Shown here: positions 23,130 through 29,845 of the stretch, piece after piece
Layout: every line of letters begins with the position of its first letter
How positions within the stretch are numbered: the stretch's first letter is position 1
DNA from: Phaeobacter gallaeciensis DSM 26640
GTDB lineage: Bacteria; Pseudomonadota; Alphaproteobacteria; Rhodobacterales; Rhodobacteraceae
Assembly: GCF_000511385.1 (NCBI RefSeq)
Contig: NC_023137.1
Coordinates: 1,247,001-1,311,000 of the forward strand
Reading direction: 5' to 3'
DNA length: 64,000 nucleotides
Position numbers and translations under genes: made by a program
Notes under the pieces: model-generated
What the model saw: only the letters and a program-made list of their open reading frames with translations
Told to the model about the DNA's origin: nothing
The model's database searches: none

Positions 23130-25211
23130 TCAGCTGGCAGCCGGGCGCAGGTCCACGAAGGTTTCGTTATAGCAGGCGCCATCCTCAGTGTCCGTGCGGA
23201 TGTCTGCGGGGATCAGCGCATTCACAGTGAAGCCGGTGGCACTGCTGGCGCGCCATGTGCCCTTGGGGCTGTAGAGCACACCGGGGCGGGTGGCATCGCT
23301 GATCTTCAGTCGCAGGGTCACAACGGCCTGATCATTGAACAGCTCCAGCAGTTCACCGTCGCTGAGATTGCGGCTGGCGGCGTCCTCAGGGTGCATCTCA
23401 ACCAGTTCGGCCCCGTCAGAGGGCGGCTGATCACCGAAGGTCGCATTGGTCCGCTTGGCGGAGGAGGGGGTGATCAGCACGAAGGGCGCGCTGCGCGGCA
23501 CCGGGTCATAGCGCGGCACACCAAAGCCATAGCGGGCCTCGTAGTCTTCGCTGAACAGCTCAATCTTGCCCGATGCAGTGGCTGGCGCGATGGTGTCACA
23601 CAGGATCGGCGCGGCCCGCTCAGGGGCGGTGATCTCCAGCGCCCGGTCCAGCGGGATCTCACTGGGGCGGTGGCCCTGGAGCTGGGGGTGATCACCGTCC
23701 AGCGCCTGATCCATCAGCTCGGCGTCGCTGGCCTGAAACAGCGGATCCTCATAGCCAAAGCGTGCGGCCAGACGGCGGAAAATCTCGGTATTGGGCAGGC
23801 TATCGCCCACCAGCGGGATCACCGGGGCGGCGCGCTGGATGTAGTTCTGGCCGTAGGCGCCATAGATGTCGTCATATTCGAAGTGGCTGGCGGCGGGCAG
23901 GATGACGTCAGACATCCGCATAGAATCGGTCATGGCCACATCGCTGCCCGCGATGAAGAGATCTTCCTGACTCAGCGCCTCAATCAGCCGCGCCTGATCG
24001 GGGTGAGTGGCGACCGGGTTGTGGTTGTAGATCATCACCGCCTTCACCGGGATGCGCATGTTCCGGTCCAGCAGTTTGCGCGCCACATCAACGATGTTGA
24101 AGACGCGTGTATCCGGGTCAATCAGGTGGCTCGCCTGCAGGCGGTCAGGCGTTTTTGGGGCGGCAAGGCCGGGTTTGGCGAGGACACCAGCCCCCAAGCG
24201 CCCATGGTGACCGGTCAGCGCCTGAAGCGCCATCGCAGCGCGCAGGCCGGACCCGCCGGAGCGGCCCCGTTCGATACCGTTGCCAAGGGAGGTGGACATG
24301 TTGCGCGCCGCTGCGATCCAATCGGCGAGCTGGTGGAACTGCGCCAGCGGGATGCCGCAGACCTCCGCCACCTGATCGGGGGTATAGCTGCGCGCGGCGT
24401 CTAGGTATTGCGCGGACCCTGTGGTCCATTGGGCGATAAACTCATGGTCCAGCGCGTCGCGCCGCTCCAGCTCGGCTGCAAGTGCCATGGCCAGCACCAC
24501 GTCGGTACCGGGCACCGGTTGCAGATGCAGGTCGCAGTGTTCGGCAATCTTGGTGCGCTTGGGGTCGATCACCACCAGCCGCGCGCCCTTGGCCCGTGCC
24601 CGTTTCAGCAGCGGTGCCATATGCAGGTTGGAGACGGTGACATTGTTGCCCCAGACCAGTACCAGATCGGACTGCACCACCTGTTGCGGCGGCATGCCGG
24701 GGGCGGGACCAAAGAGGCTCTCATAGGCACCACCACGCACCCCGCCACAGAGCGGTCCTCGGTTCAGCCGGGTGGCGCCCATGCGGTAGAAAAACCGCCG
24801 GTCCATCGAGCCACCCGCCAGCTCCCCATGGGGGCCAGCGTAGTTGAAAGGCAGCACCGACTGAGGACCATGTGCGGTGATGGCGCGCATGATACCTGCG
24901 TGGATCAGATCCAGCGCGGTCTCCCAGCTGATCGGCTCATAGCTGTCGCTGCCGCGTGGGCCAGTGCGGCGCAGGGGCTGGGTCAGGCGGTTGGGGCCAT
25001 GCACAAATCCGGCAAAACTGCGCACCACCTTGTTGCAGATCACCGCATCGGTCAGCGGGTTGGCGCGCGATCCGCGCACCGCAGTGATCTGATCCTCAGT
25101 CACGCTGACGCTCAGGCTACAGGTGTCTGGGCAATCCAGCGGGCAAACGCTGGGGTGCTGGGTGGTTGGGGTATCGGAGGATTTACTGTCGGACGGAGGA
25201 TTGTCACGCAT
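23130..25211 (-). CDS. Molybdopterin-dependent oxidoreductase (formate dehydrogenase-like)
   Basis: 693 residues from the ATG at 25211; the in-frame extension to 25382 is unlike the family. The N-terminus has a [4Fe-4S] site: CPLDCPDTC plus a fourth Cys in AVICNKV. The bis-MGD domains follow (DRRFFYRMGATRLNRGPLCGG, LVLVWGNNVTVSNLH, SLGNGIERGRSGGSGLRA), and the C-terminal dinucleotide-binding domain is present (EMHPEDAASRNLSDGE). There is no twin-arginine signal, so it is cytoplasmic. Related roseobacter proteins are called molybdopterin oxidoreductase family without a known substrate. Confidence 0.9.
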   Translation of the reverse strand: MRDNPPSDSKSSDTPTTQHPSVCPLDCPDTCSLSVSVTEDQITAVRGSRANPLTDAVICNKVVRSFAGFVHGPNRLTQPLRRTGPRGSDSYEPISWETALDLIHAGIMRAITAHGPQSVLPFNYAGPHGELAGGSMDRRFFYRMGATRLNRGPLCGGVRGGAYESLFGPAPGMPPQQVVQSDLVLVWGNNVTVSNLHMAPLLKRARAKGARLVVIDPKRTKIAEHCDLHLQPVPGTDVVLAMALAAELERRDALDHEFIAQWTTGSAQYLDAARSYTPDQVAEVCGIPLAQFHQLADWIAAARNMSTSLGNGIERGRSGGSGLRAAMALQALTGHHGRLGAGVLAKPGLAAPKTPDRLQASHLIDPDTRVFNIVDVARKLLDRNMRIPVKAVMIYNHNPVATHPDQARLIEALSQEDLFIAGSDVAMTDSMRMSDVILPAASHFEYDDIYGAYGQNYIQRAAPVIPLVGDSLPNTEIFRRLAARFGYEDPLFQASDAELMDQALDGDHPQLQGHRPSEIPLDRALEITAPERAAPILCDTIAPATASGKIELFSEDYEARYGFGVPRYDPVPRSAPFVLITPSSAKRTNATFGDQPPSDGAELVEMHPEDAASRNLSDGELLELFNDQAVVTLRLKISDATRPGVLYSPKGTWRASSATGFTVNALIPADIRTDTEDGACYNETFVDLRPAAS

Positions 25212-25314
25212 GGCTGGACTCGCAACTCTGAAAATGTCTGTTGCGCCTAGCCTAGCGGTCCATGTGACCTTGTATAAATGGCCAGATGAGGAGAATTTGA
25301 TAAGGCCAAGACGT

Positions 25315-26067
25315 CTAACGCAGATCGACCACGGATTTACCCAAGCGGAACGGCGCGGCAAAGGCCACCATGCAGAGCGCAAGGATCTGCAAGATCAGAA
25401 TATGCGCATTGGCCTGAAGATACTCCCATTCGCTTTTGAGCTGGCTGATCTGCTCAATCAGCGCATCATAGGCGCGCGCCAGGATCAGAAAATCGCCCGC
25501 AATGGTCGGCACCTTGCGGCGCAGGTTCTCAACAGCGGCCTCGGTCGGGGTATCCAGAGCAGTAAAGACGGTGAAGGCAGCGGGATCAAACGCGTCCGCC
25601 TTGGCGGCCATCTCCATCATCTCGCTGGTGTTTTCGGCGCGGCCAAAGATCAGCTGTAGACCCTGCAGCGGGGTGACCTGATCGGTGACGGCGATGAACA
25701 GGGGCAGTTCGGCATTGCCGGCGGTGGAGGCGGAGAGGAACTCGATCTTCTCGCACAGAACGGCGATATCGCTGTCATAGGCCGGATCGCAGAAGCGCAG
25801 GCGAAACCGCGCCGCGTCGCGGTCAAAGGCGGCGGTGGCGGCATAGGCAATGTCGATCTGGCGTTCCAGCCGCCCGGTGTCGGCCTTGTAAATGCCCGCC
25901 AGCACAGCGACCAGCGCGCCGATGCCGCCAAGGACCACCCAGCCCAGATCCGCCAGCCGCCAGACGCGGTGTCCGGCGGGATGGCGAAACAGCAGCGCGG
26001 TGCCGAGACTGCCGATGCCAAAACACATCAGGATCAGCAGCAGTTGATTGTCGGCAATGGTCATCAT
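25315..26067 (-). CDS. Membrane protein of unknown function, 250 residues
   Basis: Two N-terminal membrane segments (LLLILMCFGIGSLGTALLF and LGWVVLGGIGALVAVLAGIY), a soluble alpha-helical central region of about 150 residues with two cysteines (RFCDP and AVLCEK), and one C-terminal membrane segment (AHILILQILALCMVAFAA). The central region probably faces the periplasm. No family recognised. Its two ATG codons (26067 and 26064) are equally possible starts. Same strand as the molybdo-enzyme gene, 103 nt upstream of it. Confidence 0.75.
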   Translation of the reverse strand: MMTIADNQLLLILMCFGIGSLGTALLFRHPAGHRVWRLADLGWVVLGGIGALVAVLAGIYKADTGRLERQIDIAYAATAAFDRDAARFRLRFCDPAYDSDIAVLCEKIEFLSASTAGNAELPLFIAVTDQVTPLQGLQLIFGRAENTSEMMEMAAKADAFDPAAFTVFTALDTPTEAAVENLRRKVPTIAGDFLILARAYDALIEQISQLKSEWEYLQANAHILILQILALCMVAFAAPFRLGKSVVDLR

Positions 26068-26470
26068 GGGTCGGCTCCGGCCTGTTGTACTGGCGCAACC
26101 CTAGAAACTGCGGGCGGAGGCGGCAATATGGCTCACAGAGGTGTCACCGGCGCGCCGGTTTGGCTAGGCGGGAGCGTCGGCTCTGTCCAGTGGCTGTCTT
26201 TCAGGGGCCAGTGCGCCAGCGGGCCAGTTTGATCGTGTGGCCGTGTCGTCGGCGCTGGGTGTCAGGCGACGACGCCTGTGTCCTGCATGTGTTTTGGAAA
26301 GTGACGGTTGCAGTTTATTCCCTGACCGGGTCGCTTGCGGCCCGGTCTGCGCCCGACCTCCCCGTCAAACCGTAGGTTTGCCTCCGGCAATGGGGAGGGC
26401 ACAGACCTATTGGTGGATGCCTCTGGTGAGAGTATTTTACAATACTAAATGGGATCCAAGATCTTTGAAG
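26068..26470. repeat. 403-nt gap holding a nested palindromic element (26324-26407)
   Basis: No gene is supported. 26344-26407 is an imperfect palindrome: GGTCTG (26344-26349)/CAGACC (26402-26407), GCCC/GGGC, CCTCCCC (26357-26363)/GGGGAGG (26392-26398), and a central hairpin CAAACC-GTA-GGTTTG (26366-26380). A second hairpin GACCGGG (26324-26330)/CCCGGTC (26341-26347) overlaps its left edge. Base composition changes from GC-rich to AT-rich within about 20 nt on its right side. It looks like a dispersed intergenic (REP-like) repeat; copy number cannot be judged here. Confidence 0.55.
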
Positions 26471-27274
26471 TTAAGTGGGCTCGCGACTCTCTTTGGGGAT
26501 GTTGTCAGAAACTACAAGTCGTGCGAGTAGTTTTGTAAGTTCGTTTTGTAGTTCACGTCGAGTGTTCCAGAATAATGTTCGGTCAACAGAAACATCAAAC
26601 GGTGTTTTAGTGTTTCTGTGTGCAATCATCACAATTGGTTTTCCGAATGCGTTGGCTAATCCGAGCTCGTAGAAGACGTTTGGATTTCTTCCGTCTAGGT
26701 TTGCGACAATAAAATGTGCTCGGCATATCTTTTTAATAATGTGGCGTGTTATAGGGCCGTCGGTAAACTCTTCATCTCCGCGGGACAAGGAGAGCCCTAT
26801 GTCACTCGCGGCTTCTTGCACTGATTCGTATGTTTTTTGAAATTCGTCATGGAATGGTGTTAGGTAGAAAACGGTGCCTGGCTCAACGGTTATTTCCCTT
26901 TCAGAAATGCCCATTTTTTGCAGGAAGTTAGTAGGCTTGATAGGTCGATTGAAGTCGTAAGATGTAATTTCCTGCTTTGTGTCTCTCAAGCTGGCAGCAG
27001 AGTCGAGTACTACGCGGTTTGCTTCGTTCCAGCGTTTATCAGAGCTAGTCATCTCATCTACTAGATCATAAATTCGCGATTCTTTACTTGAGCGCAGTGC
27101 ATCAAGTCGCACCCGGCGCTCAGCATTCAGATACTGAACTTCCTTTATTTTCATGTAATTTGAAAACGCCACCCGGAGAACGAGTACTGCCATTCCGGTA
27201 AAGACGACAGCTTGAATAATGGCCTGAATTGCAGAGGTCTCCAGTAGGTATCTGAGGTCGTCGGATATCATCAT
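26471..27274 (-). CDS. Membrane-anchored TIR/nucleoside-deoxyribosyltransferase-like protein
   Basis: 267 residues from the ATG at 27274, chosen because it overlaps the upstream stop codon as ATGA; a longer in-frame start at 27349 lies inside that gene. Residues 16-37 are one membrane segment and 40-100 a charged helical, possibly coiled-coil, linker. Residues 130-255 form a Rossmann-like domain containing GTVFYLTPFHDEFQ, an alternation of helices, and DGRNPNVFYELGLANAFGKP with Glu203. This pattern is shared by TIR-like and nucleoside-2-deoxyribosyltransferase-like proteins, whose conserved Glu attacks or positions the ribose bond of NAD or nucleosides. The gene is AT-rich, unlike its neighbours, suggesting recent transfer. 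Enzymatic activity is inferred. Confidence 0.75.
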   Translation of the reverse strand: MMISDDLRYLLETSAIQAIIQAVVFTGMAVLVLRVAFSNYMKIKEVQYLNAERRVRLDALRSSKESRIYDLVDEMTSSDKRWNEANRVVLDSAASLRDTKQEITSYDFNRPIKPTNFLQKMGISEREITVEPGTVFYLTPFHDEFQKTYESVQEAASDIGLSLSRGDEEFTDGPITRHIIKKICRAHFIVANLDGRNPNVFYELGLANAFGKPIVMIAHRNTKTPFDVSVDRTLFWNTRRELQNELTKLLARLVVSDNIPKESREPT

Positions 27275-27639
27275 GCCACCAGTAGTTTGACGCAAAAGAA
27301 ATAAGAGAAAAGCGAAGGCAAAAAGCTGCAAGCAGCAAACAATTTGCACGAGCCTAGCTCATCATTGAGGAAAGCTTCATGTGACCTTTTGCTGGTAATG
27401 TATACCAGGGTTGTTATTAGAATTCCGATTAGAAGTGAGAGGAGTCCGAAGGCGTGATTGTTAATATCTTTGAGCGTGTATGCGACAAGAAAGCTTGCGG
27501 ACAAAAATACAATCTCGACGGGGACTTCTAGGGCGCGTTCTATGAAGTCTGCCATTTTAAACCTTTTGTCGACTACATTCTTGTAGCCAAAGGCAATTAG
27601 AAGAAGGAGTGTCGGTAAAATGATTTCTAAGTATTCCAT
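27271..27639 (-). CDS. Small four-helix membrane protein paired with the TIR/NDT-like gene
   Basis: 122 residues, almost all hydrophobic: predicted membrane segments at about 5-21 (IILPTLLLLIAFGYKNVV), 38-58, 63-85 and 100-121. No family recognised. It is AT-rich, shares a 4-nt ATGA overlap with the next gene, and begins only 11 nt after the parE stop, so it can ride on the parE transcript. The tight coupling suggests that the two membrane proteins act together, for instance as sensor or pore subunit plus enzyme. That role is inference. Confidence 0.72.
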   Translation of the reverse strand: MEYLEIILPTLLLLIAFGYKNVVDKRFKMADFIERALEVPVEIVFLSASFLVAYTLKDINNHAFGLLSLLIGILITTLVYITSKRSHEAFLNDELGSCKLFAACSFLPSLFSYFFCVKLLVA

Positions 27640-27650
27640 GTTACAATTCT

Positions 27651-29609
<1,959 letters not shown>

Positions 29610-29845
29610 GTGGTGGAGCTGCTCTTCCTTGGTGTTGATTGAAGAGCATTATGGCAGGTGTTGGGGCCGGGTGGAAGAGGCACGCAAGGGGCTGTGGATA
29701 AGGCGCGCGGGCGTTTGATTGCAGGGCGTGCAGTCATCAAACCATCGAAGCGCGCCTTCGGTCATCCGGGTGCGGCGATATTCTCCGTGCGATGTCGGGG
29801 CTTGCGGGTTACACCTCCTCCAGCGGCAGGCAGGAGGAGCGGGCA

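Follow-up and report, generated by a model that had tools for sequence, protein, structure and literature searches.

Cell-death immunity in bacteria and in animals has a common core in TIR-type NAD+-hydrolyzing enzymes (NADases), whose best-known bacterial members are activated by soluble sensors or second messengers. Here we analyzed two genes, called A and B below, that lie directly behind parE in a 64,000-nucleotide stretch of the Phaeobacter gallaeciensis DSM 26640 chromosome (NC_023137.1, positions 1,247,001 to 1,311,000; hereafter the window, with positions counted from its first letter). A encodes a small membrane protein, and B a membrane-anchored protein with a domain resembling TIR and nucleoside deoxyribosyltransferase (NDT) domains. 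With a probability of roughly 0.6, the two form a two-component membrane-bound immune module in which B is most likely an NAD+-consuming glycohydrolase of the TIR/NDT class and A its obligate partner.

Several described systems resemble this locus in part. TIR, DrHyd and SLOG domains have been grouped as one nucleotide-processing clade of immune NADases or signal makers (PMC9503650). In the antiphage system of the P2-like phage AC1 described by Rousset et al. in 2022, a TIR protein is co-encoded with membrane proteins (PMC9122126). That system has three genes rather than two, whereas here a transmembrane (TM) helix is fused to the enzyme and the partner has four helices, and the two are set apart by these descriptions. 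The AC1 combination of a TIR protein and transmembrane proteins is reportedly called 2TM-1TM-TIR, a name that we found in no paper. Swarozyc, a TIR-like DUF4062 abortive NADase that requires its active-site Glu, shares with B the TIR/NDT-like domain and the catalytic Glu, but it assembles with the phage portal and belongs to another domain family, and the word membrane is absent from the text consulted (PMC13174449). Unlike the TIR effectors of CBASS, Pycsar, TIR-STING and SPARTA, B has no STING or Argonaute domain and carries a membrane anchor and a partner instead. With regard to CBASS, no SMODS (CD-NTase) match was found in the P. gallaeciensis genome, the control search being positive in 3 of 14 genomes; with regard to retrons, that genome gave no RVT_1 match (control positive in 3 of 14) and positions 25000–29700 no Rfam match. 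Avs5, a SIR2-nSTAND3 antiphage protein, joins an nSTAND3 ATPase to an NAD-consuming effector (PMC12931631), and an nSTAND3-type gene follows A and B in eight Bacteroidota loci; however, Avs5 is a single protein with SIR2 whereas here the genes are separate, and no STAND ATPase lies within the system in the window. Nothing identifiable as the A-B pair was found in the literature, searched without supplements and with hardly any preprints. We place the pair with a known kind, the TIR/NDT-type immune effectors, here with a partner of unassigned family.

Genes A and B form a strict pair in distant bacteria

The features of the pair are as follows.

27271..27639, minus strand: gene A, 122-residue membrane protein with four long helices (open reading frame, AlphaFold model, family alignment, held-out profile test)
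26471..27274, minus strand: gene B, 267-residue membrane-anchored TIR/NDT-like protein, stop codon counted in the coordinates (open reading frame, homologues, alignments, model)
27271..27274, minus strand: ATGA shared by the stop codon of A and the start codon of B, with probable translational coupling (sequence)
27050..27262, minus strand: B residues 5–75, TM helix continuing as a charged stalk helix with invariant R61 and E65 (model, alignment)
26504..26884, minus strand: B residues 131–257, Rossmann-like TIR/NDT/DNPH1 domain (profiles, structure comparison)
26666..26668, minus strand: codon of Glu203, the predicted catalytic glutamate (the same in all 107 aligned sequences; matches the Glu of the Rcl/DNPH1 YELG motif in the alignment)

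In the raw sequence, the TGA stop of A and the ATG start of B share the ATGA at 27274–27271, and judging from this overlap A is probably made in step with B. The mechanical open reading frame of B runs further upstream to a GTG (292 residues); we placed the start at the ATG at 27274 because it matches the start of the close homologues P0001–P0003. A preliminary description of the window had reported the overlap and the start of A 11 nucleotides behind parE, and both were confirmed by the open reading frames and the raw sequence.

Scanning 84,980 species genomes with an alignment of B yielded 219 relatives, and we retained the best 80. From a viral scan with 97 relatives we likewise retained 80; 4 of those matched along most of B, for a survey set of 84 loci (80 genome and 4 viral). 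One or more TM segments were predicted for B at 44 of these 84, and every one of the 44 had, on the upstream side of B, a small same-strand gene predicted to have two or more TM segments. A script found 42 of the partners (gaps of −100 to +12) in a survey of 43 loci selected by a match range starting at residue 65 or before; that of L110 was found by frame reading and a profile, and that of L067 separately. L075, whose match starts at residue 57, was excluded from the 43; it has neither a TM helix nor an upstream TM gene and was counted among the 40 loci in which the C-terminal domain occurs in another architecture. L108, in this group, has no single open reading frame and was left uncounted; 38 of the remaining 39 lacked a small upstream TM gene, including L083, which has several TM segments and no partner.

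A profile built from five A genes (those of the window, L030, L031, L032 and L054) recovered 35 of 39 held-out partners at an E value of 0.01 and no other open reading frame in a set of 7,782. In addition, A distances correlated with B distances across 42 loci (r = 0.78; 0 of 2,000 permutations as high), a correlation to which shared species history contributes; L033 and L110 were omitted from the family alignment of A and from this Mantel test, which likewise did not include L067. The 44 loci include Vibrio, Shewanella, Xenorhabdus, Bradyrhizobium, Sphingomonas, Paenibacillus, Exiguobacterium, Lachnospiraceae, many Bacteroidota and one Sedimentisphaerales metagenome-assembled genome. Versions of the pair occur, for instance, in Vibrio hepatarius and in Arcicella rosea, the latter accompanied by a STAND-type gene. 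The preliminary description had treated the two genes as a unit, and because homologues of both occur in distant phyla in the same order and with tight spacing, the pairing is beyond chance. The Photobacterium partner gene (L033, 9501–9983) contains an in-frame stop, reflecting either pseudogenization or a draft-assembly error.

B carries a TIR/NDT/DNPH1-like domain with an invariant glutamate

The AlphaFold model of B (mean predicted local distance difference test score, pLDDT, 88.9) consists of one helix at residues 5–75, comprising the TM segment and the stalk, then a helical linker and, at roughly 131–257, a Rossmann domain, and we confirmed DGRNPNVFYELG, which contains Glu203, in the protein. 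This architecture, like the four helices of A, agrees with the preliminary description. Glu203, Asp167, Glu168, Asn197, Asn199, Lys212 and Asp227 were invariant in all 107 aligned sequences, as were the stalk residues R61 and E65, and the linker residues W82 and H87 were nearly so (105 and 106 of 107). Positive charges after the TM helix suggest, by the positive-inside rule, that the enzyme domain is cytoplasmic. Three homologues of 345–346 residues (P0007, P0024 and P0036) have a C-terminal extension of about 100 residues that looks winged-helix-like by eye.

B matched PF05014 with an E value of 9e-5 and 23 bits, under the Pfam cut-off of 28.8, and some of its homologues are listed with PF05014 in precomputed annotation; at the level of sequence, B is a distant relative of this family, and we do not call it a member. 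The C-terminal domain matched a PADLOC TIR effector profile with an E value of 1e-11. In structure comparison, it showed the Rossmann fold of the NDT/DNPH1 superfamily and a TIR-like fold with the conserved Glu. Profiles and structure thus support the TIR/NDT reading given to this domain in the preliminary description.

DNPH1/Rcl and NDT were the best structural and sequence neighbours of B, and Glu203 aligned with the catalytic Glu in the YELG motif (xELG) of Rcl/DNPH1. This proximity would fit a membrane-bound DNPH1-like deoxynucleotide N-hydrolase that would serve to strip unusual phage nucleotides or to deplete deoxynucleoside monophosphates, a form of nucleotide-pool defence. B nevertheless differs from DNPH1/Rcl and NDT in its membrane anchor, its stalk and linker, its dedicated membrane partner and one active-site residue, and a membrane anchor would be odd for nucleotide salvage. 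The aligned ranges place model residue 132 at residue 20 of human DNPH1 and residue 3 of CtNDT; F136 of B then falls at Y24 and Y7, respectively, if the alignment is free of gaps between the range start and the residue. Both of these residues appear in structure titles as mutants (Y24F and Y7F). The active-site Tyr of NDT and DNPH1 proper was found in none of the B sequences, the column being Phe in 103 of 107 and Leu in 4. NDT and DNPH1 carry Tyr at this position and are very highly deoxy-specific, whereas in TIR NADases the residue is usually Phe or Ala (PMC11204291). We therefore regard a DNPH1-like hydrolase as very unlikely, and the Phe in the Tyr column would favour NAD+ over deoxynucleotides as the substrate.

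The membrane partner A

The AlphaFold model of A (mean pLDDT 91.7) contains four long helices and one short helix; the protein is almost wholly membrane helices with short loops, and the model shows no further domain. The family alignment has Lys/Arg after the first TM helix, an ELPVDI-like stretch before the second and Arg/Lys after the third. A matched no family over the cut-off among the Pfam and PADLOC 2023 models.

A protein made almost entirely of membrane helices could be a killing pore, opened by contact with B or by a cyclic ADP-ribose-type signal that B makes, as has been proposed for the phage AC1 system. Such signals are produced by TIR-like domains, and membrane proteins often serve as effectors (PMC9122126, PMC9503650). 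However, the modelled A has short loops only and no soluble ligand-binding domain, so that gating of a pore by a second messenger is less likely; the tethering of B to the membrane would be needless for a diffusible signal; and the two genes covary as a tight pair. Taken together, we consider a signal-gated pore unlikely.

The pair occupies a variable slot behind parE

The surroundings of the pair are as follows.

27640..27650, minus strand: 11-nucleotide gap from the parE stop to the A start, with no terminator-like or promoter-like match on the same strand (sequence, signal scan)
27651..29609, minus strand: parE, which borders the variable slot on the left and is conserved (open reading frame, relatives' genomes)
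26068..27650, no strand: variable slot from parE to a conserved 250-residue gene, filled differently in each of six same-genus relatives (genome comparison)
25315..26067, minus strand: conserved 250-residue gene, right border of the slot, present in all six (genome comparison)

The position of A and B, on the same strand and 11 nucleotides behind parE, is what would be expected of ordinary housekeeping membrane genes of a parE operon. The comparison with relatives makes this explanation hardly credible. In six of six same-genus relatives, parE and the 250-residue gene were both present (1.4–1.9 kb apart in five, on separate contigs in G001), and other genes followed parE: a 221-residue gene in G005, whose parE is 99% identical, one of 337 residues in G006, 272 in G003, 260 in G001 and 133 in G002, and DUF2188/PDC-S16 with a 212-residue gene in G004. 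Homology to the window by blastn was confined to the border genes in G002–G006 and to parE in G001, and full-length B was found in none of the six. The pair was found in 2 of 394 family genomes, its own counted. Its G+C content (26471–27639) is 0.439, against 0.609 for the whole window, and only 1 of 1,257 equal-sized sliding windows (step 50) was as low, the one that covers the pair. The AT-rich block of the preliminary description is thus the lowest stretch of the window.

We extended the slot survey to the family by taking the best parE matches. Of 39 aligned loci, L240, with 3 bases after parE, was dropped, leaving 38, own locus included. The first 800 bases after parE had a G+C content of 0.50 or below in 18 of the 38, and parE itself ranged from 0.56 to 0.69. 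Eight cargo proteins were scanned first, and two of them had a family, DUF2188/PDC-S16 and HEPN_AbiU2, the latter behind parE in another genus (G011). Four of ten further cargo proteins (L243 was omitted) were over the Pfam cut-off: AbiTii, DUF3800, DUF4238 and HEPN_AbiU2. Rousset et al. observed strong T7 resistance with a DUF4238 protein (PMC9122126).

A divergent A-B pair lies directly behind parE, 15 nucleotides from its stop, in L031 (JAHVJD010000002.1, the same place as G267). Its A and B are 26% and 35% identical to those of the window and its parE 96%, which indicates that different alleles of the module have occupied the slot on at least two occasions. The label Nocardioides marinus of this record looks wrong, since its parE is so close to that of the window and the contig is that of G267, a member of the window's family.

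A third gene in Bacteroidota and defence-like neighbours

Eight Bacteroidota loci (L038, L041, L042, L044, L047, L050, L057 and L061) have a gene of roughly 1,240 residues that begins −23 to +7 nucleotides from the end of B; the genes of the other seven are 62–79% identical to that of L038 over the aligned part. We scanned 145 of 232 selected neighbours, nearest first, and considered the best 25 of 57 PADLOC and the best 25 of 118 Pfam families. nSTAND3 (PF20720) matched 8 of the 145; the L038 gene is named in the table, and the remaining seven matches are taken to be the other seven long genes. In Bacteroidota, the system apparently includes the nSTAND3-type gene as its third. The P. gallaeciensis genome has no nSTAND3 match over the cut-off and four weak matches elsewhere, so that there the pair must function without nSTAND3. 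Ten hand-picked neighbours were also scanned singly, and five had PADLOC matches at 1e-10, a rate without a background control: TIR/PycTIR-like (L035), TIR-NLR (L084), PDC-S15 (L046), PDC-M55C/HEC-05 (L049) and PDC-S06 (L036).

The overlapping genes, small first and catalytic second, and their patchy distribution are also features of a toxin-antitoxin-like arrangement, in which B would be a constitutive NADase toxin and A would merely neutralize it, with no phage sensing of its own. Abortive-infection cargo in the same slot and the nSTAND3-type gene behind the pair in eight loci suggest defence instead, although toxin-antitoxin and defence functions are not exclusive. We judge a purely neutralizing A to be quite unlikely.

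Proposed mechanism and points that weigh against it

The abortive-infection families in the slot, the defence genes beside some relatives and the nSTAND3-type gene in Bacteroidota all point to a role in defence, and A and B are probably an antiviral two-part system. In the mechanism we propose, B would be held by its single N-terminal TM helix with the C-terminal domain in the cytoplasm, and A would keep B inactive, sense a phage-caused disturbance of the membrane, or both. Infection would cause B to cluster by way of its stalk, and clustered B would hydrolyze NAD+ or make a cyclic ADP-ribose signal, stopping growth of the infected cell (abortive infection). In P. gallaeciensis, the pair occupies a swap-in slot behind parE. 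More tentatively, at somewhat under even odds, the pair may represent an undescribed cross-phyla immune system in which the four-helix A and the stalked NADase B form an inner-membrane sensor-effector complex for phage entry or membrane injury, wired to a cytosolic STAND sensor in some Bacteroidota and carried in roseobacters as one of many cassettes that pass through a defence slot hitched to transcription of parE.

Several observations weigh against the immune-module interpretation. B is structurally slightly closer to DNPH1 than to TIR, which allows for a deoxynucleotide substrate. The one aligned sequence without His at position 87, in the conserved linker motif, is the window's own B, which has Arg (27014–27016), and this copy may therefore be altered. 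The link between TM-bearing B and its partner is blurred by L068, which has the other architecture and also a small upstream TM gene, and by L067, whose upstream gene was not recognized by the A profile in any round; the role we assign to A is itself an extrapolation. As for genomic context, six of the first eight slot cargo proteins had no family over the cut-off, as did six of the ten further ones (DUF5677 just below it, one weak match and four without any). Likewise, five of the ten neighbours picked as likely defence genes had no PADLOC match, and the neighbour scans lacked a background control.

The tight pairing with a membrane partner to which no family is assigned suggests that activation takes place at the membrane, a step at which phage sensing is poorly understood. 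The pair lends itself to a direct test, being small (1.2 kb), present in phyla from Bacillota to Bacteroidota and equipped with a predicted catalytic Glu. The parE slot also offers a new place to search for unrecognized roseobacter defence genes, given how many of its cargo genes belong to no known family.

Transcription from parE and further slot cargo

The pair is probably read from parE transcription. The preliminary description had suggested such sharing, and the 11-nucleotide gap fits it. A minus-strand scan of 26000–28200 gave no promoter-like and no terminator-like match, and this is weak evidence, as shuffled sequences average only 1.3 promoter-like matches. In relatives (L191–L201, L218–L224 and L238–L261), several co-directional cargo genes begin within about 30 nucleotides of the parE stop.

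Two further cargo genes were noted by eye. The 212-residue protein of G004, beside DUF2188 (PDC-S16) at L220 199–834 on the minus strand, had no Pfam or PADLOC match and is possibly TIR/NDT-like, with FINCPFDEDF near its start. The cargo of G100 (L260 3638–4018), without a Pfam match at 0.01, contains the motif ILFEAGAL, which appears TIR-like.
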